A stretch of 24,941 bases of DNA from a virus: the IMG/VR virus record IMGVR_UViG_3300046009_003320, positions 1-24,941 of that record. The stretch is one strand, 5' to 3'. Each line of letters begins with the position of its first letter. Within the stretch, counting starts at the first letter, position 1. A model generated the notes under the pieces. It was given only the letters and a program-made list of their open reading frames with translations. It was not told the origin of the DNA and made no database searches. Positions 6,846 through 24,941 of the stretch are shown here, piece after piece. Both the position numbers and the translations under genes were made by a program.

Positions 6846-9800
6846 TTACCTTCCAAAAAGGTTGGATAAAGATTGTTTGAATGGAGTTAAAACAGGTTCA
6901 GCTTCCTCTTGGTTCAGCATCAACCTGTCTCGTTCAATGTTGAGGATGCGAGGCCACAGCCTTTCAATCTTATCGATCTGAGCCTTGGTTGCTGAATCAA
7001 GAGGCTTTGAAACAATGTCGAGGTATTCAGGAGTTTTAAGAATCCTCCCAATAGCAGCGTCAACAGCTTCTTTCATCCCCTTTTCCATCGTTTTGTAAAC
7101 ACCGTATCCACCAAGCCCAACACCAGCTCCAACAAGACCTTTGTAGGTTCCGTATCCAATTCCGTATCCAACACCAGTCGCAAGTGCTGGAGCGATGAAT
7201 CGACTGAAAACGCTGGGTTTTCCAAGGTCTGATACTTGTTCCAACTGGTTGGCAACCGTGTTTATTCGCTTGACCCCATCTTCTCCAAGCAGTCTTTGGG
7301 TTGCTTCGTAATACTTACCTTGAGCCTCCTTATTCCCAACGAGAGAGGAAATCTTTTTGGTGTCGATCTTTGATCCGTCAAACGACTCGGAGATGATTCT
7401 ACCGATCAACATGTTTTGAGCATCGTTGATAAGCTCAGGCTTGTTCTTACCAACAACCTCCATGAATCTTTTCACCCGATAATCAGACGAAAGACCAGAC
7501 CCCTTTGCTGGCGCAAGGAAGTCGATCAGATTTGAAGGTGTGAAGTTTTCGAGTTGGCCACCGGGTTGCATGGCCTTTTTGACGACATCGTAAAACTTGT
7601 CCCGCGCTGCACTTGTGCTTTCAACGGCTCGTTCAAGTGCTTTGTACAGTGGAACCCCTTCTTCCGTGGCAAGTTCTCGAACCACTTCGTCCAACTTAAA
7701 TGTGTCCAATGCGTCGCCGCGAGCAGCACCGGCTTCGTTTACACGGGCTTGAATTTTTCCAAGCGATTCAATAATTCTATTTTCACGCTCGATAACATTT
7801 GATGCCCTCAACTTTGAAATTTTATCAGTAATTACATCGGTGCGCGAAGTTAGCTGATTCAATTTTTCCTGTGCGCCAGCAATTCCTGAGTCAACTTGAT
7901 TTTGAAGCTCCTTGATATTTGAGTCAATTGACTTCTTTTCGACTTCAAGCGCAGCTCTCTGGCCGATCAAAGAACGATACTTGGTTGCAACATCATTGAT
8001 TTCAGAAAGGTCTGGAAACAACTCATTCACCACCTCTTTTTGAATCCCAGTAGCATACCCGCCCTTTCCTTTTGCAAGAGAATCAAGGAATTGATTCGGG
8101 TTTTCACCTTTGATTTGAGTGTAAACAAAGGCTCTAAGATTCGGTTCAATCTCCCCATACCTGTTTCCAAGCATGTTCTTAAGAAGCCGCAGATTCTGCG
8201 CGCCATTTGCGCCGGAAATCGTGGAAACAATCCCCGGCATTCCACCAGCCTCACCAGCTTCTCTTAAAACTTTGTCAGCAAAAAATCCTTTGAACCTAGA
8301 GATTCCGGTGCTGTAAAATTTGTTTTCAGCCTCAAGAAGATTTTTTAGATTAGGACTGTCTGCCAACGCTTCATTAAGCTGATTGTTGATTTTATCCAGC
8401 CGCTCAAAAACAGAATAGTCAGCTTTCTGGACAGCCTTGTTAAAATCAATTTCCTTGAGAATTTTTGAGCGTTCTTCTCTGAGTTGGTTTGCGGTTTTTA
8501 CCACTTCAACTTCTTTACCATCAGGTCCAATTTCAGTTGTGGTTATTTTTACCTCATCAAGTTTTGGCTCAAGTTTTCCATAGCCCTCTTTGCTCTGTTT
8601 CTTAAAAGCCTCAAGCTCTTCACGGGCAACCTGTTGAACTTGCTGGCCAAGTTCCTCGCGGGAGATTCCAGCGGCAGGGCCATAGCCAGGAAGTGCGCCA
8701 GCCTCTATGTCCTGAATGCGCTGATTTATCTGCGAAATCTCACCGTCAATCCGGGTGCGCTCGGCAGAGCCGCTTGGAAGTGAATCTCTTTTAGCCTTCA
8801 ACCCTGTGATTTGATCGATTAGCGGTTGAGAATCAGTGCTGTATCGACCTTCGTAAATACGAGCAAGATCAGTCAGCCTCTTGTTACGAGTCGCAAGTCT
8901 CGAATCTACAGCATTCTGAACCCTATCCAAAAGCGTTTCAGATTGGTCTACAAACCTGTCAACCGCATCAGCAGAAATCTTGTCTGCGTTCTGAACGTAA
9001 TTTCCAAGCTGAGTCTTGATTGAGCTGGAGATTTCATCAGCAGGAAGACCAGACGAAACACCTCTCGCAAGAGATTTCGAAACAATGTCTGAAATATTTT
9101 TCCTGAACTCATCAGGTCTAAGGCCAGAGTTTGGAGAATACAGAAGCCTAGCAATTTCATCAGCCGATTGAGCGGCCAGTCCGCCAGCCCCTTGACGATC
9201 AAACTCCCTCAGAACTTCCTGCTTTCTGTCCTGAATGAACTGCTGTGTAAAGGGCCGCTCAAACTCTGCTGCCGCTTGCCGAGCATACCGTTTAGCACGT
9301 TCAAATTTTCCAACGGAATTCAACGGTCCAACCAACTCTTCAGCCTGAACGCCTCTAGCCCTACCCAATGCTCCAGCAGTTCTAAATCCAATGCTGGCAG
9401 ATGGAGTCAAAATGCCAGCTAGTCCCGTTGAAAGAAGAACATCCGAAAGGTCAGTGCCTTCATCGAAAGCAGCTTCTAATCCAGCCTGTGCAGCAGCGGT
9501 TCCAACCGAAGAACCTGTTTCGAGAGCGAATTGAGCCAACTTGCTTGCACGTTGGCCAACCGGAACTCCTGGGACAGCCCCAGCCATCATTTCACCAAAT
9601 CTGTAAGGTTCTGGAGAAATGGTTTGAGATAATGCTTGGCTTCCAAGTCCAACGCCGCTTTCAAAAAGAAGCCCTGTTCCAAGGCCCATTCCAGCAGCAG
9701 CAGGTGCAGCTAGAAGCGGGGGAATCATTGCGGCACCAAGCGCAGCACCTCTCCGCATTCCGCGAGATTCTGCGGCACCACCTCTTGTAAACTCGCCAGA

Positions 9801-10157
9801 CGGCTGAAGCCTTCCACCCTCAAACGGAGCAAGCATTCCGGTCGGTTCGGCCATCTGCCCCATCGTCCCAACAAAGCTCTCCATTTTTCCGACATTGCCA
9901 GCATCCTGCACAGCCTTATTCAACTGAGCGGTCGATCCAACAGCGACAGCGGCTTGAGCTTCAGGAAGCGCAGCAACCATCCCCTGCTCCTCGCGACGCC
10001 GCATCTCGGCAATCGTGGCGGGAGGTTGAGGTGAAGGTTCAGCAGCGGATCCACGCAAAGCAGAAAGAACGTCCGCCTCAGTTGGCTCGGTGGCAGAATC
10101 AAGGACAACGCGCTTGCGAACACCGTTGTCGTTAACCGTTACAGCAAATTTTGGCAT
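6846..10157 (-). CDS. very large internal virion / DNA-ejection protein
   Basis: A 1103-residue protein, the largest product here. Residues 1-35 form a small domain (MPKFAVTVNDNGVRKRVVLD, then EADVLSALRG) of a type found at the start of large phage virion proteins. Residues about 135-190 are Gly/Ala-rich and hydrophobic. Residues about 280-860 are mostly long heptad-rich helices. Near the C-terminus another glycine-rich hydrophobic span (GVGYGIGYGTYKGLVGAGVG) could cross a membrane. Size, helical make-up and position after two shorter helical proteins match T7 gp16-type ejection proteins that form a channel through the cell envelope. No lytic transglycosylase motif is visible. The body is AT-rich while the N-terminal part is GC-rich. 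Confidence 0.6.
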   Translation of the reverse strand: MPKFAVTVNDNGVRKRVVLDSATEPTEADVLSALRGSAAEPSPQPPATIAEMRRREEQGMVAALPEAQAAVAVGSTAQLNKAVQDAGNVGKMESFVGTMGQMAEPTGMLAPFEGGRLQPSGEFTRGGAAESRGMRRGAALGAAMIPPLLAAPAAAGMGLGTGLLFESGVGLGSQALSQTISPEPYRFGEMMAGAVPGVPVGQRASKLAQFALETGSSVGTAAAQAGLEAAFDEGTDLSDVLLSTGLAGILTPSASIGFRTAGALGRARGVQAEELVGPLNSVGKFERAKRYARQAAAEFERPFTQQFIQDRKQEVLREFDRQGAGGLAAQSADEIARLLYSPNSGLRPDEFRKNISDIVSKSLARGVSSGLPADEISSSIKTQLGNYVQNADKISADAVDRFVDQSETLLDRVQNAVDSRLATRNKRLTDLARIYEGRYSTDSQPLIDQITGLKAKRDSLPSGSAERTRIDGEISQINQRIQDIEAGALPGYGPAAGISREELGQQVQQVAREELEAFKKQSKEGYGKLEPKLDEVKITTTEIGPDGKEVEVVKTANQLREERSKILKEIDFNKAVQKADYSVFERLDKINNQLNEALADSPNLKNLLEAENKFYSTGISRFKGFFADKVLREAGEAGGMPGIVSTISGANGAQNLRLLKNMLGNRYGEIEPNLRAFVYTQIKGENPNQFLDSLAKGKGGYATGIQKEVVNELFPDLSEINDVATKYRSLIGQRAALEVEKKSIDSNIKELQNQVDSGIAGAQEKLNQLTSRTDVITDKISKLRASNVIERENRIIESLGKIQARVNEAGAARGDALDTFKLDEVVRELATEEGVPLYKALERAVESTSAARDKFYDVVKKAMQPGGQLENFTPSNLIDFLAPAKGSGLSSDYRVKRFMEVVGKNKPELINDAQNMLIGRIISESFDGSKIDTKKISSLVGNKEAQGKYYEATQRLLGEDGVKRINTVANQLEQVSDLGKPSVFSRFIAPALATGVGYGIGYGTYKGLVGAGVGLGGYGVYKTMEKGMKEAVDAAIGRILKTPEYLDIVSKPLDSATKAQIDKIERLWPRILNIERDRLMLNQEEAEPVLTPFKQSLSNLFGR

Positions 10158-15925: not shown

Positions 15926-17131
15926 TTAAGCCTGAATCCGCTGGATGGAGAAGGAAGAGTTAGCTCCGACTGTTCCGCCAGATCCAAAAGACGTAACAAC
16001 AAGCTCGTAATAATCACCGGCAACAGCTTGATCTATGTATTGAAGAAAAAACGGCCCAATCGCAACCGGAGAAATTGTTGCCGTTTCGCTTAATGGAAGA
16101 AGAGTTGTTGATCCGTTTTTTCTAATTGAAGCGTTGGCATAACTTCCAGCAGCAGGTGTAAAAATAAACAAAGCGTCTAACCTGTAGTATCCAGCGTAAG
16201 GAACAACAAACCTTCCGTTTACAGAATTAAATCCAGAGGCAGTATCAATTCCGGTATAGTTTGTACTTGGATAATTTGTACTGCTAAAAATGTTTTGATT
16301 TACAGGTGATGGGTTAACAAATGGAAGCGTTCCAGAATCAACCCTGCGCGTAAACGTGACGTAGCTAAACGCAGGTCCAGCCGTCGATGCGATTGAAATG
16401 GTTCCAGCTCCCGGCGTAATCGTAATGCCAGACCCTTGAGTCAAGCTGGCCACCGTGTATCCGGTTCCATTGCCGATCAGAATCTGACCATTAGACGGAA
16501 CGGTCGTAACATTCGTCCCACCCTTGGCAATCGGCAACGTACCGCTGATGTCGCCAACCGGCACCGTCGCAGCCGTCGAGACGACGCCAGCACCGCCAGA
16601 TCCGGCGGTCTTCATGTAACCGGCGGCAAGCGAATCGAGGGCAGTCTCGTTCGTTAGAGTTCCATCTGCTGTTCGGCAAATGTAGGAAGCTCCAATCGGC
16701 GCACCGCCAGAAACACCCGCAGCACCCGTAGGACCAATCGCTCCAGCTAGCGTGATGAGCGAACCGGGAGGAATCAGCGTAGTCGGAATCGCATTGGCAA
16801 TGCCGAGAACACCGGGAGCAGGGTTTTGAAGCGTTAGCTGCAAGCCGTCAACCGACAGAACCTGCATGTACCCAAGACCCTGAATCGAAACGAAGAACTG
16901 TCCGGCGACTGATTCGGGCAGAAACTCGGTATTATCGACGAAAACAAGAACGCTCGAACCAAGCGCAGGAACAAAAAACGCAGCCGTTGTGTAGGTGAAC
17001 GAATCAATTCCGTTCGTGCCATTGGTGCCGTTTGTACCCGCTGCTCCTTGAGGACCGGGGATATTCACGACTACCGGCTCGGAGTCGCAAGGCTGGCAAC
17101 AGCCGGATGAAGAAACAAGTTGCGACGGCAT
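15926..17131 (-). CDS. tail fibre-like protein with collagen-like stretch and C1q-like head
   Basis: A 401-residue protein. The ATG at 17131 is chosen over 17167 because AGGA lies 5 nt upstream. In order: a Cys-rich tip (CCQPC, 11-15); a short collagen-like run (GPQGAAGTNGTNGTNG, 26-41); a beta-rich domain (about 43-140); a second mini collagen-like run (GAIGPTGAAG); a phage-fibre repeat (DISGTLPIAKGGTNVTT, then NGQILIGNGTGYT, then SGITITPGAGTISI); and a C-terminal domain (about 254-401) resembling C1q/TNF-like trimeric heads (RFVVPYAGYYRLDALFIF; YYELVVTSFG). It should be a trimer that binds receptors or decorates the tail. The head-encoding DNA (about 15930-16340) is markedly AT-rich compared with the rest of the gene. 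Confidence 0.7.
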   Translation of the reverse strand: MPSQLVSSSGCCQPCDSEPVVVNIPGPQGAAGTNGTNGTNGIDSFTYTTAAFFVPALGSSVLVFVDNTEFLPESVAGQFFVSIQGLGYMQVLSVDGLQLTLQNPAPGVLGIANAIPTTLIPPGSLITLAGAIGPTGAAGVSGGAPIGASYICRTADGTLTNETALDSLAAGYMKTAGSGGAGVVSTAATVPVGDISGTLPIAKGGTNVTTVPSNGQILIGNGTGYTVASLTQGSGITITPGAGTISIASTAGPAFSYVTFTRRVDSGTLPFVNPSPVNQNIFSSTNYPSTNYTGIDTASGFNSVNGRFVVPYAGYYRLDALFIFTPAAGSYANASIRKNGSTTLLPLSETATISPVAIGPFFLQYIDQAVAGDYYELVVTSFGSGGTVGANSSFSIQRIQA

Positions 17132-17185
17132 ATTTTTCCTTTCGCACAACCTCAAGTCCAACGACAACTAATGCAAGGCCAAACT
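17132..17185. promoter_or_regulatory. divergent gap between the tail operon and the packaging genes
   Basis: This 54-nt stretch separates the first gene of the minus-strand late operon from the terminase on the plus strand, so promoters for both late units must lie here or inside the neighbouring genes. It contains the AGGA ribosome site for the fibre gene (17137-17140) and an AAGG 7 nt before the terminase ATG. I see no convincing -35/-10 pair in either direction and no strong inverted repeat. A phage-specific late promoter is possible but cannot be recognised. Confidence 0.35.
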
Positions 17186-18865
17186 ATGGCAGAGCAAGTG
17201 TCTGAGAATCCACTGATCGACCACAAGTACGGAATACGTTCTCCCGTCAAGATTCCCGATCTTGAACTGGAGCTGTACGCTTTCCGCAACCGACTCCAAC
17301 CAAACGAGGGTGGACTAGGTACTTTCGAACATTTTCAGAATGCGACGAAAATGCTCTGGCCAAAGATGAGCTGGAACCCATGGCTCGAAGCTCAAGTCGA
17401 AAGCCTCTGCGAGCATGACTACGTTGGCTGGGCGGGATGCGGAGCGAGCGGAAAGACCTTTGGCGCAACGCTTTTTGCGACGGTCTGGTGGTTGGCCAAC
17501 CCTGCCAAGTCAACGGTTGTCCTGACATCGACGACCGCGAAGATGATCCGAAAGCGTATGTGGGCTAATCTTCAGGATCTTGTTCGGAAATCGCGAGGAT
17601 TCCCCGGCAACATGGTCGATTCGAAGATGGCGTTACAGGCTGTCAAAGGTGACGACCGGCACTCTATTTCAGCTATCGCCGTCGCCGAAGGTAACACCTC
17701 GAAGGCGGTGGCCAACATTCAGGGTATCCATGCGGAACGCGTGATGGTCATCATCGACGAAGCGACAGATACGCCTGAAGCGGCGTTCGAGGCTTGTACA
17801 AACCTCTCCAAGGGTTGCCGCGAGTTCAAGATGCTGGTCATCGGGAATCCGGCATCAAAGTTCGATCCGCACGGCAGATTCTGCACACCGGCAAAAGGGT
17901 GGCGCAGCGTCACGATTGAAGATCAGCATTGGCTGACGGAACGCGGTATGTGCCGACGTTTCGACGGCATGAAGTCGCCGAACATCACCGAGGGGCGAAC
18001 GAAGTACCCATATCTCATCACTCAAGATCAGGTCTTGTCGGCAATGCGCCATGAGGGCGAGCAGAGTCCTACGTTCTGGAAGTACACACGCGGATTCTGG
18101 AGTCCTGACGGCATGGTCAAGACAGTGCTGTCCGAGTCGCTTATCGAAACGCACACACCTACAAAAAATTTGGTGTTTACTACAAACGTCCAAATTGTTG
18201 CCGGTCTTGATCCGGGTTTTGGCGGCGATAGATGCGTCCTTCGCTTTGCCAAGGTTGGCACCGCTAACGACAAGCTGAGCATTCTCTTTCAGGACATCAT
18301 CCAGATATCGCCCAACGCACAGCTCACCGAGCCGGTCCATTACCAGATAGCCAATCGAGTTAAAGAGGAATGCAACAAGCGCGGTGTTCCACCCGATAAG
18401 TTCGCTCTCGATTCAAGCGGTGAGGGTGGCGGTCTTGCGGACATTCTGACTCGCGAATGGGGTGTGGTTCATCGCGTCGAGTTCGGCGGCTCTCCATCGA
18501 CCATTCCGGTCAGCGACGAGGATAGTAGGCCATGCAATGAGGCTTACGACCGCAAGGTGACGGAACTCTGGTTCTCGATGCGTAAATGGGTTGTCGAGGA
18601 ACGGGTCGGCGGCATGGACATCGAGACGTTGCAGGAGTTCTGTGCGCGAATGTTCGACGATGGGAAGCGTAAGATATCCGTCGAATCGAAGACTGTGATG
18701 AAGCAAAGGACTGGTAAATCTCCTGACTTGGCCGACGCTGCTGTAGTCTTGCTTGATCTGGTGCGTAAAACCGCCTCCTTTGAACCGCGAGCAACAAAAG
18801 CTGACAAGGTATGGGAAAAGCTGGTGAGGGACGCAGACTCCATTTACTACGACGGGGACGTATGA
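17186..18865 (+). CDS. terL: terminase large subunit
   Basis: A 559-residue DNA-packaging motor. The N-terminal ATPase has Walker A GCGASGKT (84-91) and Walker B VMVIIDEA (186-193, catalytic E192). The C-terminal RNase H-fold nuclease has the expected aspartates: D342 in AGLDPGFGG, D409 in ALDSSGEG, and D514/D517 in SPDLADAAV. The protein binds the portal, pumps DNA into the prohead with ATP and cuts the concatemer. The ATG at 17186 has AAGG 7 nt upstream; in-frame starts at 17120 and 17171 lack a ribosome site and the first overlaps the fibre gene. No small terminase gene is visible in the window. The stop overlaps the next gene by ATGA. Confidence 0.9.
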   Translation: MAEQVSENPLIDHKYGIRSPVKIPDLELELYAFRNRLQPNEGGLGTFEHFQNATKMLWPKMSWNPWLEAQVESLCEHDYVGWAGCGASGKTFGATLFATVWWLANPAKSTVVLTSTTAKMIRKRMWANLQDLVRKSRGFPGNMVDSKMALQAVKGDDRHSISAIAVAEGNTSKAVANIQGIHAERVMVIIDEATDTPEAAFEACTNLSKGCREFKMLVIGNPASKFDPHGRFCTPAKGWRSVTIEDQHWLTERGMCRRFDGMKSPNITEGRTKYPYLITQDQVLSAMRHEGEQSPTFWKYTRGFWSPDGMVKTVLSESLIETHTPTKNLVFTTNVQIVAGLDPGFGGDRCVLRFAKVGTANDKLSILFQDIIQISPNAQLTEPVHYQIANRVKEECNKRGVPPDKFALDSSGEGGGLADILTREWGVVHRVEFGGSPSTIPVSDEDSRPCNEAYDRKVTELWFSMRKWVVEERVGGMDIETLQEFCARMFDDGKRKISVESKTVMKQRTGKSPDLADAAVVLLDLVRKTASFEPRATKADKVWEKLVRDADSIYYDGDV

Positions 18866-19482
18866 GCGGCTACAAGATTCTCAATGAACACAATGTAATC
18901 CCTGGCGGATGGAACTACCGCGTTCCTGAAACCGGAATCGAGATACCGGCTGGTTCATTGCCACAGCTCCGCGAGTTCGTCCGAAACCATTACGCCGCCA
19001 ACGCGGTAAAAGTTCCAGACAACCTCGACATCTTAATCACCGAGTATCAGTGCCGTAACGGTGCTGATTGTTCCTACGATGAAGTTGAGATTCCTAAGCC
19101 AAAAGGTTTGAAATCTCTTCAGATCGGAGACGTTATCCGCTTCAGCATGAGCCTGATTCATGGGCTGACCGTTGGCGGCGGTAAGGTGGATCAGGCGGAA
19201 GCGATTCGAAGGGCGAGCATTTGCGCCGGATGTCAGTTCAACCGGAAACCGCTTGGATGCACCGGATGTAACGCTCGCGTCCTCAAGGAAGCTGTTAGAA
19301 CGCTTTCTCAACACGGAACAACGCCACTAGACGACCAGCTTCAAAGCTGTGAATTTTGTGGTTGCTTCATTAGAAGCATGGTGTGGTTTCCCATTGAAAC
19401 ACTCCATAAATTTACGGACGCTACAGAGAACGCAAACTTGCCAGCTCACTGCTGGAAAAAACGACCATGTACGGAAACCTAG
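18862..19482 (+). CDS. cysteine-rich protein between terminase and portal (probable zinc protein)
   Basis: A 206-residue protein, started at 18862 by the ATGA overlap with the terminase stop. The N-terminal half has a small domain (VIPGGWNYRVPETGIEI, then LREFVRNHYAANAVKVP) that I have seen in phage proteins of unknown function, followed by C64 and C70. The C-terminal half has nine cysteines in an ordered set: C121/C124, C133/C136, C163/C166/C168, C197 and C203, enough for two zinc sites. Encoded between terminase and portal and overlapping both, it could help packaging or act as a small-terminase substitute. That is inference from position; no family function is known to me. Confidence 0.65.
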   Translation: MSGYKILNEHNVIPGGWNYRVPETGIEIPAGSLPQLREFVRNHYAANAVKVPDNLDILITEYQCRNGADCSYDEVEIPKPKGLKSLQIGDVIRFSMSLIHGLTVGGGKVDQAEAIRRASICAGCQFNRKPLGCTGCNARVLKEAVRTLSQHGTTPLDDQLQSCEFCGCFIRSMVWFPIETLHKFTDATENANLPAHCWKKRPCTET

Positions 19483-21716
19483 CCCAACTGCCGCTCGAAA
19501 CCATAAACGAGGAGGGTAAAGCTCCCGAAACTCGTATTGCCGACGCGGCATCGGCTCGCGAGATATTCCAAAAGCTCATCATGGCCGACGAGCTGCGGAA
19601 TAGCACCCGCGCAAAGCTCCGTGGTCTTGTTGACGGCAATCCTCCGTACAATCCGGCGGAGTTGCGACGAAACAACCAAGCGTTCCGTACCAACGTCAAC
19701 TTCCGCGAGTCGGAAGCATTCCTCACGTTGGCCATGTCAGCCTTCTACGATGTGTTCGCCGAGGTTCCGACCTACGCGACAATTCGTACCGCTTACGGCA
19801 ATGACATGGATAAGCGGGAGGAGTGGTCGAAGATCATCACCGAGGAGTTCGACCGTCTCCAGAAGCTGGACAAGGACTTCGACTACATCATGCAGCTCTC
19901 GCAGCGTGAGATGGTCCTCATTGGAAATGGTCCGCTAATCTTCGAAGACAGCTCCAACTGGCGGTGCAAAGCCATCATGGCGACGGATCTTCTCGTCCCC
20001 GATGGCACCAAGTCCAATGTCAGCGATTGGAAGGTGGCCTGCGTCCGCACTCGTATGGGCGTGGATGATTTGTTCGAGAAGATCCAAGACGAGAAAGCTG
20101 CGACTGCTGCCGGTTGGAACGTGGACTACGTTCGCCAGCGTATCCGTGCCGCGATGCCTGAGCCGTACCGTTCCGGCGTTCAGTACGATTGGGAGTTCTT
20201 CCAACGTCAACTCCGCTCAAACGACATCACGTTCTCCGCACGGTCAGAGGTCGTACTGATGTCCCACATCTTCTACAAGGAGTTCGATGGCCAGATCAGC
20301 CATGCCATCATCGATGAGCGGGACAGCGAGAACTTCATGTATCGGAAGCTGCGCCGTTACAAGCGGTGGGAGCAGATCATTCATCCGATGTATTACGACC
20401 GTGGTGATGGCGAGCATCACGGCGTAAAGGGTCTTGGTATCAAGATGCTTCAGGCAATGGAGCTTAAGAACCGGCTCCGCTGCTCGATGGTGGACAGCGC
20501 ATTCGCTCGCACCCAGATCCTCTTCCGTCCCCTCAACCCGAACGCTCTCAGCAAAACAAGCGTCGTTCAGCAAGGACCGTATGCCATTCTCCCGCCAGAC
20601 TACGAAGTCATTCAGCAGAACATTGCTGGCGTTCTGGACGCTCCTATGGCGGTCAACGCGGACCTTGAGAATGTTCTTCAGGGCAATCTCTCTCAGTATC
20701 GCCAATCGCTCAACAAACCGGCTGGCAACCCACGAACTGCGACTGAAATCCAAGCCATCGTGGCGCAGCAGTCAGCAATCGGTAAGACGCAGCTCAGCCG
20801 GTATTACAACCAGCTCGATTCCTTCTTCGAAGAGCGGTACAACCGAGCCTCCAATCCCAACCTGAACCCGATTACCAAATCGGATAAGGATGCGATTGAG
20901 TTCCAGCGTCGTTGCACTGAGCGCGGCGTTCCGGTTCAGGCGATGCTTGATATCGACTTCGTTGAAGCGACTCGCACGGTTGGCCAAGGTTCTCAGTTCG
21001 CGAAGCAGCAGCTCCTTGGCTCTCTGCTCGGACTTCTCGGTTCTTTGCCAGAGGGTGGTAAGGTTAGCCTTTTGCGCGACTACATCGCCGCTCAGGTTGG
21101 CCAACAAATGGTGGATCGTTATCTGCCAACTCAGATCCAATCTTCGCGAGTTCAAGATCAGACCGCTCTGGCTGTTCTGGAGCATTCGTCGCTGCGCCAG
21201 GGCAACATGGCCATCGTCACCGATACGCAGAACCACATCGTTCACATCGACACGCATCTTGCGGCGGCGAACGAAGCTGCTTCCTCGATCCAGCAGGGCG
21301 GCAATCCGCAGGAGATTATGCTCTTCCTGCAAGGTATTGGTCAGCACGTTCAGGATCATCTGGCTCGTCTCTCCACCGATCCTACTCGTCGTCCTCAGGT
21401 CGAAGCCTACGCGCAGCAGCTCCAGATGCTTGTCCAGACCGTTGAACAGCTTGGTCAGATGCTGGCCGAGCAGCAGCAGGCAATGGCGCAGCAACAGCAG
21501 GCGATGGCTATCCAGCAGGGAGTCGATCCTCGCACCGCCGTGATGAATGCGGAGGTTCAGGCGAAAATCGCTCGCCAGAATGCCGAGACTATGGCCAACA
21601 TTCAGCGTCAGAACACGAAGGCGATGGCCGACTTGGCTCGCCGGAATGCCAAGACAACCGCTGATATTCAGCGAGCGAATGCAACTGCCGAGTCCAACTT
21701 GGCGCGTCAGGGATAA
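19467..21716 (+). CDS. portal protein (head-tail connector)
   Basis: A 749-residue protein, in the size range of P22 (725) and N4-type portals. The core (about 30-500) has NNQAFRTNVNFRESEAF, a helical wing, and a DGEHHGVKGLG to MLQAMELKNRL region typical of podovirus-like portals, which form a dodecameric ring at the capsid vertex for DNA passage. A long helical C-terminus follows: a Gln/Met-rich stretch (EQQQAMAQQQQAMAIQQ, near 670-690), then four 11-residue repeats (702-745). This would form a barrel reaching into the head. It overlaps the upstream gene by 16 nt and directly follows the packaging genes, supporting the call. Sequence motifs in portals are weak, so this relies on size, composition and context. 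Confidence 0.75.
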   Translation: MYGNLAQLPLETINEEGKAPETRIADAASAREIFQKLIMADELRNSTRAKLRGLVDGNPPYNPAELRRNNQAFRTNVNFRESEAFLTLAMSAFYDVFAEVPTYATIRTAYGNDMDKREEWSKIITEEFDRLQKLDKDFDYIMQLSQREMVLIGNGPLIFEDSSNWRCKAIMATDLLVPDGTKSNVSDWKVACVRTRMGVDDLFEKIQDEKAATAAGWNVDYVRQRIRAAMPEPYRSGVQYDWEFFQRQLRSNDITFSARSEVVLMSHIFYKEFDGQISHAIIDERDSENFMYRKLRRYKRWEQIIHPMYYDRGDGEHHGVKGLGIKMLQAMELKNRLRCSMVDSAFARTQILFRPLNPNALSKTSVVQQGPYAILPPDYEVIQQNIAGVLDAPMAVNADLENVLQGNLSQYRQSLNKPAGNPRTATEIQAIVAQQSAIGKTQLSRYYNQLDSFFEERYNRASNPNLNPITKSDKDAIEFQRRCTERGVPVQAMLDIDFVEATRTVGQGSQFAKQQLLGSLLGLLGSLPEGGKVSLLRDYIAAQVGQQMVDRYLPTQIQSSRVQDQTALAVLEHSSLRQGNMAIVTDTQNHIVHIDTHLAAANEAASSIQQGGNPQEIMLFLQGIGQHVQDHLARLSTDPTRRPQVEAYAQQLQMLVQTVEQLGQMLAEQQQAMAQQQQAMAIQQGVDPRTAVMNAEVQAKIARQNAETMANIQRQNTKAMADLARRNAKTTADIQRANATAESNLARQG
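21570..21713 (+). repeat. 33-nt tandem repeats encoding 11-residue units at the portal C-terminus
   Basis: Portal residues 702-748 consist of consecutive 11-residue units: ARQNAETMANI, QRQNTKAMADL, ARRNAKTTADI, QRANATAESNL, then a partial ARQ. Units 1 and 3 are most alike, also at the DNA level, suggesting a 66-nt duplication of a 33-nt pair. Eleven-residue (hendecad) periodicity is known to favour nearly straight or right-handed coiled coils, which suits a twelve-helix barrel. Upstream, the DNA for EQQQAMA/QQQQAMA is also repeated. Confidence 0.75.
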
Positions 21717-21721
21717 GAATT

Positions 21722-22339
21722 ATGGGAAACGAAGAAAACATCGTTCAGTTTATCGCCGACAACTTCCCGAAGATGGGCGGCTGGTGCGACCCGAAGAAAG
21801 GTTTGGAAATTGCCAAACTTGTTCTCGAAACCAAGCCGCAGCGTATCGCCGAAGTTGGCGTCTTCGAGGGCAAGTCAACGCTCGCTCTTGCTCAAGCCTG
21901 CAAGCTGAATGGAAGCGGAACCGTTTATGCCATCGACTCTTGGAAGAAAGAGGACTGCATCGACGACGAGACGAGTGCTAATCAGGACTGGTGGGCGACA
22001 CTCGATCTGGACAAGCATTACGAATCGTTCGTTGGTCATTGCGTCCGAGCGCAGGTTGTGAAGCAGATTCAGTTCTGCCGCATGTCGTCATGGGATGCGT
22101 CGCGATTCCTGCCTGACATGGACATGGTTCACATCGACGCCAATCACGCCGAATGGCCGTCTACGAGCGATGTCGTCAACTGGCTTCCGAAGCTGAAGGT
22201 TGGTGGCTACATCGTGATGGACGATGTGAACTGGGAATCAACCCAGACTGCTCTCAAGTTCGTCCTGAAACGCTGCGAATTTGTCTCGCGATTTGACCTG
22301 AGCGAGAGCGTTTTTGCCATCTATCGAAAACTGAAATAA
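21722..22339 (+). CDS. class I SAM-dependent methyltransferase (Methyltransf_24-like)
   Basis: A 205-residue Rossmann-fold methyltransferase. Motif I is IAEVGVFEGKSTLALA (about 41-56), the acidic end of strand 2 is VYAIDSW (about 69-75), a motif IV-like strand is MDMVHIDANH (about 137-146), and VGGYIVMDDVNW (about 161-172) follows. The HIDANH and DD residues resemble families that methylate small molecules or sugars, including cephalosporin-hydroxylase-like relatives. It is the first gene of the glycan cassette, 5 nt after the portal stop, and is followed at 4 nt by a GT25-type enzyme, so a sugar or glycoprotein substrate is likely by context. The actual acceptor cannot be read from sequence. 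Confidence 0.7.
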   Translation: MGNEENIVQFIADNFPKMGGWCDPKKGLEIAKLVLETKPQRIAEVGVFEGKSTLALAQACKLNGSGTVYAIDSWKKEDCIDDETSANQDWWATLDLDKHYESFVGHCVRAQVVKQIQFCRMSSWDASRFLPDMDMVHIDANHAEWPSTSDVVNWLPKLKVGGYIVMDDVNWESTQTALKFVLKRCEFVSRFDLSESVFAIYRKLK

Positions 22340-22343
22340 CCCC

Positions 22344-22946
22344 GTGCAAACGGTCGTTATCACGATGCGAGGTAGTTCTCGCATCCCGCGCCTACAAAGA
22401 AACCTAGATTCCGCCGGAATCACGGACTATCGCATTTTCTATGGCCTGAACGGCGCGAAGTCCGGTCTGAAAGCGAGCATTCCGTACGAGGTGGATGCTC
22501 CCGGCTCAGGCTACCTCATCTGCTCCAAGCACGTTGGATGCACGATGTCCCATTGGATGCTATGGAACGCGCTGGATTTCGATCCTTCCACGCCGGACAT
22601 GGTGATGGTCTTAGAGGATGACATCCTGTTCCGTCCTCATTGGCGCGAAACAATCGAACGCGCACTAACAAAACTGCCCGAGGATTGGGATATTCTCTAT
22701 CCTGGCTCCTGCTGCGCGCACGGAAAGCTCTCAAGCGAGTTGGATTCCAACCTCTTCGAGGGGATGCCGCTTTGCACTCACTGCTACATCGTCCGAAAAA
22801 AGGCTCTCAAGACTCTCATCGAAACGAACGAAGAGGTCTTCGCGCCAATCGATTTGCAGATGTACTTCAAGAGCCGCCAGCATCTGAAATGCTTCACAAT
22901 TTTCCCGCGAGTTGCGGATCAAGAGGACTGTCCTTTAGCCGACTAA
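22344..22946 (+). CDS. GT25-type glycosyltransferase, copy 1
   Basis: A 200-residue glycosyltransferase of the LPS-biosynthesis/collagen-galactosyltransferase family (GT25). It starts with a GTG and no clear Shine-Dalgarno sequence. Family features: an opening strand with a basic loop (VVITMRGSSRIPRLQRNL), GCTMSHWMLWNAL (about 65-77), the metal- and nucleotide-sugar-binding VLEDDILF (about 92-99), then DWDILYPGSCCAHG, then CTHCYIVRKKALKTL, then APIDLQMYF. GT25 enzymes transfer hexoses (often galactose) to LPS, or to hydroxylysine in collagen. It is a clear paralogue of the GT25-type gene two positions downstream. The target, whether host surface sugar or virion protein, is inferred, not seen. 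Confidence 0.78.
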   Translation: MQTVVITMRGSSRIPRLQRNLDSAGITDYRIFYGLNGAKSGLKASIPYEVDAPGSGYLICSKHVGCTMSHWMLWNALDFDPSTPDMVMVLEDDILFRPHWRETIERALTKLPEDWDILYPGSCCAHGKLSSELDSNLFEGMPLCTHCYIVRKKALKTLIETNEEVFAPIDLQMYFKSRQHLKCFTIFPRVADQEDCPLAD

Positions 22947-22950
22947 AATT

Positions 22951-23541
22951 ATGGGTTCACCTTTCAATGGAGACACATTCATCGAGCAGGAGTTTCTTTA
23001 CCTCAAAGAACGCTTCGAGCTGACGACTGCTGTCGAAACCGGCACTCACGAAGCGGACACTACCGTTTGGTTGGCCAAAAACTTCCTCAAGACCGTTTCA
23101 TGCGAGCTGAACCACGACTTGGTTGAGAGAGCTAAGGAGAAGTTTAAGCGCGAGAAGGTCTACGTCGAAATGTTCGAGGGCAGCAGCGATGCCTGCATGA
23201 ACTGGTTCATCCCGCATCACGGAATTGGACACGACACGATTTTCTTTCTCGACGCCCATTGGAACGACTACCTGCCGCTCCTCGAAGAGCTTGAGGCAAT
23301 CAACCGATACGACCTGCATCCAGTCATTGCCATCCACGATTTCAAGGAGCCGACCGGACAGCTTGGATACGACAGCTACAACGGCCACGACATCTGCCTC
23401 GGCTACATCAAGGAAAAGCTGGACGCAATTTATAAGGCCAAGACCCTGACGCAGAAGTACGGCTACAGCTTCTACTACAACCATCCCAGCCGATGCGTAG
23501 GTGCGCGTCGCGGCATCATCTACATCCTCCCGAACCGATGA
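22951..23541 (+). CDS. class I SAM-dependent methyltransferase-like protein, second type
   Basis: A 196-residue Rossmann-type protein. Motif I is TTAVETGTHEADTTVWLAKN (about 26-45), motif II is VSCELNHDLVERAKEKF (about 50-66), and the middle strand reads DTIFFLDAHWNDYLPLLEEL (about 94-113) with PVIAIHDFKEP (about 124-134). It differs from the methyltransferase two genes upstream (ETGTHE against EVGVFE; LDAHW against IDANH) and so is not a simple duplicate. Wedged between two GT25-type genes with a 4-nt gap upstream and an ATGA overlap downstream, it most likely acts on the same glycan. Substrate unknown. Confidence 0.65.
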   Translation: MGSPFNGDTFIEQEFLYLKERFELTTAVETGTHEADTTVWLAKNFLKTVSCELNHDLVERAKEKFKREKVYVEMFEGSSDACMNWFIPHHGIGHDTIFFLDAHWNDYLPLLEELEAINRYDLHPVIAIHDFKEPTGQLGYDSYNGHDICLGYIKEKLDAIYKAKTLTQKYGYSFYYNHPSRCVGARRGIIYILPNR

Positions 23542-24167
23542 AACTACAGCTCGAAAAGACGCCGTGCTTCATCGTCTCGAAGCCTGAAAGCGAGAAGGAA
23601 AGACGTTGCATCCGCTACATGAAGACATTCGGAATCGATGCGGTTCCGATGTATGGATTCAGAGCTGAGAACTGTGGCATCTCGACCGACTACTACCACA
23701 CACGCGAGAAGGAGAAGGCAAAGGTCAAAACAATCGTCGCCGGACTCAGTCATTTCTCCGTCTGGTCGGCCATCAAGTGGATGGTTGAGTCGAAGGTGAC
23801 TGATCATCGGACGTTTCTGATTGTCGAGGACGACGTTGAGTTCACATGCGCCGATTGGAAGGCAAAGCTGGCCGACAATCTGGACTATCTGCCGAGCGAC
23901 TGGCATGTCGTCTACATCGGAAGCTGCTGCGCCGACCCGATTGAAGACCACGGCTACATCGCGTCGAATCTTTACAAGCTGGTCCGAGGCATGTGTACGC
24001 ATGCTTACCTTGTAAATTACGAAGGTGTCTGCAAACTACTCGAAACGAATCAGAAGGTTTGGGGTCCAATCGACATCCAGATGCTGGTCGATTCGATGCC
24101 TAGGATGAACTTTTACGGGATTCTTCCGAGGCTTGCTACGCAGGAGAACACAAAATTGTATCCATAA
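23538..24167 (+). CDS. GT25-type glycosyltransferase, copy 2
   Basis: A 209-residue GT25-type enzyme, started at 23538 in an ATGA overlap. Motifs line up with copy 1: CFIVSKPESEKERRCIRYMK at the N-terminus, AGLSHFSVWSAI for the acceptor helix, FLIVEDDVEF as the EDD motif, DWHVVYIGSCCADP, CTHAYLVNYEGVCKLL, then GPIDIQMLV and a closing RLATQENTKLYP. Shared blocks GSCCA, CTHxYxV, ETNxxV and PIDxQM show the two copies arose by duplication and then diverged. Different acceptor loops suggest they add successive sugars or act on different acceptors. The stop shares one base with the next ATG (TAATG). Confidence 0.78.
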   Translation: MKLQLEKTPCFIVSKPESEKERRCIRYMKTFGIDAVPMYGFRAENCGISTDYYHTREKEKAKVKTIVAGLSHFSVWSAIKWMVESKVTDHRTFLIVEDDVEFTCADWKAKLADNLDYLPSDWHVVYIGSCCADPIEDHGYIASNLYKLVRGMCTHAYLVNYEGVCKLLETNQKVWGPIDIQMLVDSMPRMNFYGILPRLATQENTKLYP

Positions 24168-24941
24168 TGAAAGACATCATCCGAAGTCTGTCTCTTAAAG
24201 CTCTCAAACGATTCGCAAATGGCGGTGATGGTCAGGCCGATTTGCTCATGCAGATCGAGGATTTGCAGAAGACGCTTGAGATTCGAACCAAAGAAAACGA
24301 AGAGCATCTCACCGAGGTCCGCGAGGAGCGCGACCATTGGCTTGCTCAATACGACGAAATCAAATTCGCAGCCGAGTTTCTAATGAGCTACGCAAAGAAC
24401 GACGTACCCAAGCTGGCCGAACAGTGCGACTGGGAGGTTGGCAAAATCACGCTTCCTGAGGAGGTTGGAACCTACTACTTCAACCCTGCAATCATTCAGG
24501 AACCGAGCGGTCAGATCCTGCTTTTCGCCCGACGCTGCCGCAACAAGCGCGAGAAGGATGAGGACGTTTACCTTGAGAAGAACGACATCGTTGTCTTTGA
24601 GCTGACCAAGGATCTTGGGGCCATCAAGAAGGCGTTGCTGACACTTACCTCGCACATGCCGGGAGAGCAGTTCGAAGATCCGCGCATCGTCAAGTTCGGC
24701 GACAAGTACGGACTAAGCTGCTGCACGTTCGTCCCATTCAAGAGCTACGCGCATCAGGCGATGTTCGTCTTGGACAAGCAGTTCCTGAACGTCGCCCGAT
24801 TCGACCCGATCTACGGCAACAACTACGCGCAGGCGATGGTGAACGATGGCCATGAGAAGAACTGGCTCTACTTCGTCCACGACAACACGCCACACATGGT
24901 GTATTCGGCCAATCCTCATGTCGTAGTGCGCCTTAATGGGC
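24167..24941 (+). CDS. five-bladed beta-propeller glycosidase/phosphorylase-like protein (GH130/GH43-like), 3' truncated
   Basis: An ORF of 258 codons that stays open to the right edge, starting at 24167 in a TAATG overlap. The N-terminal 25-65 region is a charged coiled coil (EDLQKTLEIRTKENEEHLTE). From about residue 95 it shows beta-propeller glycosidase features: YYFNPAIIQEPSGQILLFAR (the NPA start of a blade), EQFEDPRIVKFGDKYGLSC (the EDPR motif) and EKNWLYFVHDN followed by VYSANPHVVV (the EKNW and NPH motifs of GH130-type proteins). Such proteins cleave, phosphorolyse or transfer mannosyl-type sugars. It closes the glycan cassette as far as it is visible. The catalytic acid cannot be assigned with the C-terminus missing. 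Confidence 0.6.
   Translation, partial: MKDIIRSLSLKALKRFANGGDGQADLLMQIEDLQKTLEIRTKENEEHLTEVREERDHWLAQYDEIKFAAEFLMSYAKNDVPKLAEQCDWEVGKITLPEEVGTYYFNPAIIQEPSGQILLFARRCRNKREKDEDVYLEKNDIVVFELTKDLGAIKKALLTLTSHMPGEQFEDPRIVKFGDKYGLSCCTFVPFKSYAHQAMFVLDKQFLNVARFDPIYGNNYAQAMVNDGHEKNWLYFVHDNTPHMVYSANPHVVVRLNG

Follow-up and report, generated by a model that had tools for sequence, protein, structure and literature searches.

Bacterial capsule and O-antigen loci hold a variable set of glycan enzymes between conserved flanks, and virion glycosylation is known in a few phages. In the passages of PMC4351075 on mycobacteriophage Corndog (cluster O), genes gp35-gp38, located between the portal and protease genes, are described as encoding an O-methyltransferase, two glycosyltransferases and a putative N-acetylglucosaminyltransferase; all four proteins were detected in infected cells and modification of the capsid was proposed. 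Glycans are reported on the capsid and tail tube of mycobacteriophages in part of PMC12619734. For chlorovirus PBCV-1, the section of PMC7826918 concerned describes virus-encoded glycosyltransferases and a methyltransferase acting on a terminal sugar (A064R, A111/114R), as well as a capsid glycan with a conserved core. Phage pan-genomes (Cryophage and others), as outlined in PMC7468147, have near-identical cores that swap gene variants at fixed places, and glycosyltransferases make up six of the annotated hits in their variable regions according to the same outline. Here we report a cassette of glycosyltransferase and methyltransferase genes in the virus record IMGVR_UViG_3300046009_003320 of IMG/VR, which was analysed as a whole (24,941 bases, the window). 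It belongs to a phage group known here from environmental contigs only, whose members hold ten different enzyme sets between the same two conserved genes.

The cassette of the window follows a gene of 749 amino acids (19467..21716, +), its conserved left flank, hereafter the left gene. The next genes are MT1 (21722..22339, +), a class I methyltransferase (Methyltransf_24); GT1 (22344..22946, +), a GT25-type glycosyltransferase with an EDD motif; MT2 (22951..23541, +), a class I methyltransferase distant from the Pfam models; and GT2 (23493..24167, +; alternative start 23538), a GT25-type paralogue of GT1 with the same motif. The conserved right flank is the fifth gene, P5 (24167..24941, +), which is GH130-like and is cut by the contig end. 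An earlier note, made from the letters of the window alone, had described five consecutive plus-strand genes with gaps of at most 5 nt or overlaps, and the spacing agrees: 5 nt between the left gene and MT1, 4 nt between MT1 and GT1, 4 nt between GT1 and MT2, an overlap of 49 nt between MT2 and GT2 (4 nt if GT2 begins at its second ATG, 23538) and an overlap of 1 nt between GT2 and P5. The note had placed these genes after the portal. The left gene does occupy the portal position, and was so named for its size and for following the terminase; it matched no profile in Pfam or PHROGs, and the portal identity thus lacks profile support. Identity of the left gene is 87-100% across 75 loci, and that of P5 is 80-100%.

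Relatives were collected in eight IMG/VR scans seeded with GT1, MT2, the left gene (twice), P5 and the families GT32, GTA47 and MT28, which returned mostly loci from one phage group. In the first left-gene scan 80 of 168 relatives were kept, 70 of them extending to P5 and 10 stopping at the contig end before it. Counting the window, the collection comprised 415 loci, many of which share a contig. Both the left-gene end and P5 are present in 366, and these reduce to 84 distinct stretches, a count that excludes L307-L355 (whole-genome pieces and one phage record). Counts of distinct loci vary with the criteria applied: 85, 87, or 84 where the left-gene end is present and shorter flanks are compared. 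Architectures were assigned with tblastn using one representative per family, and genes of whole genomes were called by a simple longest open reading frame (ORF) rule.

The 84 stretches hold ten architectures built from nine glycosyltransferase and methyltransferase families. The order of the window, MT1-GT1-MT2-GT2, occurs in 33 of them, a share favoured by the seeds, and so recurs, a point that the earlier note had proposed to check. The others are GT32-MT33-MT1-GT1 (17), GT32-MT33-GT25b-MT28 (10), GTA47-MT2-GT2 (8), GT32-GT25b-MT28 (5), MT1-GT1 (4), MT1-GT1-MT2-GT2-MT28 (2), GTA47-MT1-MT2-GT2 (2), GT32-MT33-GT25b (2) and GT1-MT2-GT2-MT28 (1). Alternation of methyltransferases with glycosyltransferases, to which the note had drawn attention, is therefore true of the window and is not general, being one of ten combinations. 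Since 84 distinct stretches, that of the window included, carry such a cassette at this place, the five-gene arrangement is not due to chance. Among them there was no unexplained gap of 150 nt or longer, and no left gene with more than 3.5 kb downstream lacked P5. In one set of 87 distinct loci none lacks a GT25-type enzyme and none lacks a methyltransferase; two glycosyltransferases occur in 81 and one in 6. This constancy and the lack of longer unexplained gaps give indirect support to the idea of one joint pathway put forward in the note. An internal stop was found in one of 317 cassette genes, GT2 of locus L023, within the matched range. Exact end repeats (127, 127 and 245 nt) occur in 3 of 16 whole contigs, with lengths of 45.5-46.9 kb; the L059 contig (92,531 bases) is about twice as long as its relatives and could be a joined or duplicated assembly.

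The main feature of the locus, a set exchanged between conserved flanks, is seen only from relatives, so the window alone could not reveal it. Left-gene DNA is at least 95% identical in 167 pairs, 90 of which differ in architecture, and at identities of at least 99% the architecture differs in 3 of 8 pairs. In 84 pairs with unlike first genes, identity breaks off at a median of +2 nt relative to the left-gene stop (range -4 to +10). In 48 pairs with unlike last genes, the break on the downstream side has a median position of 0 nt relative to the P5 start (range -9 to 0). In the 47 of 90 differing pairs with enough flank, the 2 kb upstream and the 2.6 kb from the P5 start aligned in full at 85% identity (median fraction 100% for each), against a median of 1.6% for the cassette. 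Pairs in the break, flank and at-least-99% comparisons share genomes and are not independent. As an example, L170 and L167 share a stretch of 4,751 nt with 99.6% identity, which runs to 2 nt beyond the left-gene stop; their cassettes then differ, with only about 650 nt aligning (77%), and 92% identity is regained from 3 nt before P5. Close relatives thus carry unlike gene sets between nearly identical flanks, as is characteristic of a flexible, exchanged phage module.

A FastTree phylogeny of the left gene from 75 loci requires 29 changes of cassette type, compared with a minimum of 9 and with 42.5 for shuffled labels, so that types cluster and yet exchange often. Median ratios of nonsynonymous to synonymous substitution rates (dN/dS) ranged from 0.05 to 0.09 across the nine cassette families; the left gene had 0.06 and P5 0.08. 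These values derive from at most 150 sampled pairs per family, from which pairs with dS outside 0.05-1.5 were dropped, leaving 8 (GTA47) to 94 (GT2) in the cassette families. All nine cassette families are under purifying selection, and the low ratios indicate that variation arises from swapping of intact genes and not from decay. An exonuclease VIII-like protein of the whole genome G014 (phrog_412, E=5e-78) is a plausible aid to such exchange. The cassette is not the sole variable place, and other genes vary between these genomes too. A minus-strand protein of about 1000 amino acids (window 6846-10157) was compared with the genes at the same place in G001-G018 and varies strongly, falling into six clusters at 35% identity (16 genomes plus the window).

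The two methyltransferases and two paralogous GT25-type enzymes recognised in the earlier note hold in profile searches (MT1, GT1), by paralogy (GT2) and by fold (MT2). MT1 scored above the Pfam cut-off for PF13578 (E=6e-20) and PF01596 (E=2e-6) and below it for the RMNT_CmcI and TylF models. A D-x-x-H and a DD motif (D139, H142, D167, D168), which we take to be the metal site, are invariant in all 11 aligned MT1/MT28 members. A combined MT1 and MT28 profile matched mostly O-methyltransferases in the Protein Data Bank (PDB), the best being 2hnk, and also CmcI and NovP (E=3e-6), the latter a sugar O-methyltransferase. MT1 is probably an O-methyltransferase, with sugar as its putative substrate. 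MT2 had no significant match in Pfam. Its AlphaFold2 model, with a predicted local distance difference test score (pLDDT) of 80.8, has a class I methyltransferase fold (best Foldseek E=1.8e-8). The model matched 904 PDB entries at E<=0.001; the 50 matches listed are all methyltransferases or proteins with such a domain, and the best are Hen1, NovO and COMT. Distant relatives of MT2 are present in two other, larger viral contigs, L124 (9430-10591, two in tandem) and L125 (9983-10600), near genes of UDP-glucose-dehydrogenase, epimerase, FkbM and capsule type (10 neighbours scanned). L124 also encodes PhoH.

GT1 matched PF01755 with E=1.5e-10 (41.8 bits, cut-off 24), and GT2 with E=0.002 at 18.3 bits, under the 24-bit cut-off. 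GT2 is a clear paralogue of GT1 (35% identity, E=3e-24), and the GT25b protein of L189 scored 89.1 bits against the same model (E=5e-25). The EDD motif (E91, D92, D93) is invariant in 12 of 12 aligned GT25 members, GT1 and GT2 included. GT1 and GT2 are accordingly GT25-type proteins, which are predicted to use nucleotide sugars as hexose donors. The remaining families were assigned to PF04488 (GT32, with which we equate that Pfam family), PF08241 (MT33), PF01755 (GT25b), PF13578 (MT28) and PF02709 (GTA47, 23.2 bits at a cut-off of 23). In the PDB, the nearest sequences to a profile of the GT25 set were mimivirus R655 (E=6e-15), called a putative collagen glycosyltransferase in part of PMC9546862, and procollagen galactosyltransferase 1 (E=4e-11).

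P5 of the window ends at codon 258. The copy in L126 (14701-16041) has 447 codons, the first 257 identical to those of the window, and this full-length protein matched the GH130 family PF04041 with E=3.8e-9 (36.4 bits, cut-off 26), as did P5 of G014 (E=5e-10, 39.2 bits against 26); the truncated window protein alone had no GH130 match in Pfam. Of the two families named in the note for this gene, GH130 is borne out through the full-length relatives, and GH43 found no match in Pfam. The three sequence matches of P5 in the PDB were 5b0p (Lin0857), 1vkd (TM1225) and 7fip (a beta-1,2-mannobiose phosphorylase). Residues E170, D171, P172 and R173 are invariant in nine of nine sequences and align with EDAR in 5b0p and EDPR in 7fip; the Asp of this ED[PA]R motif we take to be catalytic in GH130. 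H238, D239 and N240, likewise invariant in nine of nine, face HRP in 5b0p and HRR in 7fip. P5 thus has HDN where the phosphorylases have an Arg after the conserved His, an Arg that we presume to be functional in GH130 phosphorylases. Against the NCBIfam mannobiose phosphorylase equivalogs P5 scored 41.8 and 36.7 bits, far under the curated cut-offs of 550 and 450. In view of the HDN residues and these low scores, a role as hydrolase, transferase or binding protein appears likelier than one as phosphorylase. The AlphaFold2 model of P5 had a pLDDT of 37.5.

The terminase large subunit gene (17120..18865, +; phrog_2, E=1.7e-23) is the first of a same-strand run that includes the cassette, and it is followed by a small conserved gene of 223 amino acids (18811..19482, +; no function assigned, median 89% identity among whole genomes) and by the left gene. 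This single run favours late expression and a virion acceptor. We lean, with slightly better than even confidence, towards a reading in which this uncultured group of tailed phages has a modular locus for glycan decoration that recombines, with cassettes being exchanged and an acceptor that most likely lies on the virion. A short methylated glycan would be built jointly by one to three methyltransferases and one or two glycosyltransferases, of which at least one is a GT25-type enzyme. P5 may act on the constant part of this glycan, and the swappable modules would set the outer sugars and methyl groups. Expressed in the run that begins at the terminase, the enzymes would most likely modify a virion protein produced alongside them. 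Related phages would exchange cassettes by recombining within the conserved genes on either side, so that near-identical phages differ in a glycan trait. A bolder form, which we regard as doubtful, sees in the locus the phage counterpart of a bacterial serotype locus, setting a virion "glycotype": P5 would provide the constant step, acting at the glycan base either as a transferase of propeller type or as an enzyme that trims, and a pool of glycosyltransferases and methyltransferases would be traded between two conserved genes. The coat would then change as the flanking genes stay nearly constant.

Several observations weigh against this proposal. No specific protein was singled out as acceptor, and any named here is a candidate only. 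Covariation with cassette type was compared for eight genes (a ninth, available from 14 loci only, was excluded), and none was convincing: the collagen-like gene reached its value in 33 and the tail fibre gene in 31 of 1000 permutations, uncorrected, and the remaining six genes in 263-998. Of the genes around the cassette only the terminase matched a profile in Pfam or PHROGs, and the 393-amino-acid gene after P5 gave nothing in either at E<=0.01. The only scaffold match in a whole genome, PF06810, belongs to a separate protein of 1058 amino acids and scored 20.1 bits against a cut-off of 35. The scans were seeded with genes of this group, which biases the architecture frequencies, and chimeric assembly could account for part of the swap count. 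No relative of the left gene, searched as an alignment and as a single protein, was found in 84,980 species genomes that might have indicated a host. The best PHROG of MT1 (phrog_2675, E=1.4e-15) is named "DNA methyltransferase".

This last match is one of the points in favour of the idea that the enzymes put glycans on phage DNA, which we hold to be very improbable. Phage glycosyltransferases that glycosylate DNA are said to be known from work by Pyle in 2024, which PMC12619734 cites, and G014 has ThyX and a C5-cytosine methylase family. However, Pfam places MT1 among the O-methyltransferases, the cassette of the window lies about 15 kb from the primase gene, and in the 52 of 69 called ORFs of G014 that make up the scope of our Pfam searches of this genome there was no family for a hydroxymethylated or otherwise activated base. 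It is improbable as well, to a lesser degree, that the targets are proteins of the host or virus within the cell, modified to serve takeover or counter-defence, and that no virion coat is formed. Fast swapping would suit counter-defence, and the acceptor proposed above is itself conjectural; the constant GH130-like partner and the distant MT2 relatives near sugar genes nevertheless point to assembly of a carbohydrate.

A stronger competitor, still unlikely in our estimation, is that the cassette alters the glycan of the host surface, either lipopolysaccharide (LPS) or capsule, and thereby excludes superinfection or prevents released virions from sticking to debris. Pfam describes PF01755 as an LPS biosynthesis family, a swappable pool of types would match the strain variation of host surfaces, and glycosyltransferases of temperate phages change the host serotype, as stated in part of PMC12619734. 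Yet the genes are found in the run after the terminase and not in an early or lysogeny region, and the tail fibre covariation expected for a host-matched trait was weak. Nor was a GtrA-type or integrase family found by Pfam in the G014 ORFs searched, and those ORFs and the cassette held no Pfam family for the features of a Gtr seroconversion operon (GtrA-type membrane protein, GtrB, dedicated Gtr). Decoration of the virion is the preferred reading.

Among possible acceptors, a collagen-like protein (window 15926-17167, -) adjoins the terminase and is present in 21 of 22 records at 57-73% identity. It was rejected as acceptor in spite of the likeness of GT25 enzymes to collagen-modifying ones and its wide occurrence: the longest run of glycine-X-Y (GXY) repeats is exactly six triplets in 58 of 58 proteins, and neither X nor Y is a lysine in any of these 348 triplets, so that hydroxylysine-type glycosylation is not expected, and its covariation is weak. 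At the tail fibre place of G014 (L340 5039-7918, +) there is a protein of 960 amino acids whose Laminin_G_3 domain is lectin-like and whose N-terminus resembles a tail-fibre connector. The 393-amino-acid gene after P5 was considered as a scaffold protein and a gene of 424 amino acids as a capsid protein; both assignments were dropped, neither gene having a Pfam or PHROGs match at E<=0.01. As the genes after P5 are without profile matches, we claim no scaffold or capsid neighbour, and the placement inside a morphogenesis region given in the earlier note is sustained on the terminase side only. The window contains no tRNA gene.

In a set of 50,697 phage records, from which records very near the window may have been excluded, the cassette region had no DNA match (E<=1e-5), and no protein match at the same threshold was obtained for the left gene, MT2 or the P5 fragment. 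GT1 was matched only by Burkholderia phage AP3 (two records, 26%), MT1 by one unannotated record (29%, E=5e-4) and full-length P5 by one record (27%, E=5e-3). The terminase matched 48 phage records, all below 60%.

Compared by described functions, the closest system is that of Corndog, which has a similar set of glycosyltransferases and a methyltransferase after the portal, a place known in our phages by position only. The judgement of the earlier note that such a set is unusual is thus only partly right. The description of Corndog in PMC4351075, as far as it extends, mentions neither a GH130-like gene nor any exchange of cassettes as a whole. PBCV-1 likewise combines glycosyltransferases with a methyltransferase, going by its description, but it is an algal virus with multidomain enzymes. 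Mimivirus R655 and procollagen galactosyltransferase 1 are the nearest PDB sequences to the GT25 set, whereas the collagen-like repeats of the present phages are without lysine. Capsule and O-antigen loci share the conserved flanks; the phage cassettes differ in having two to five genes, all for glycosyltransferases or methyltransferases, and no polymerase, flippase or sugar-nucleotide gene. In the pan-genomes outlined in PMC7468147 the commonest annotated variable genes are DNA methyltransferases, homing endonucleases and tail genes, in contrast to the multi-gene glycan set found here, the content of which differs from type to type.

Ten enzyme sets in otherwise similar neighbourhoods amount to a natural experiment on whether virion glycosylation is selected to vary. 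If the virion is the acceptor, the use of phage coat sugars in escape from binding proteins, in host contact or towards predators becomes directly testable. The locus is also a source of small GT25-type and methyltransferase enzymes and of a GH130-like protein without a phosphorylase residue. Among the papers listed by a literature search on the topic there was none that described this exchangeable cassette. The kind of glycan set and the flexible phage module are both known, and the swapping of a whole enzyme set is new. New in combination are a glycan set of ten contents, nearly gene-exact boundaries, a constant GH130-like gene and a left gene unmatched in the 50,697 phage records.

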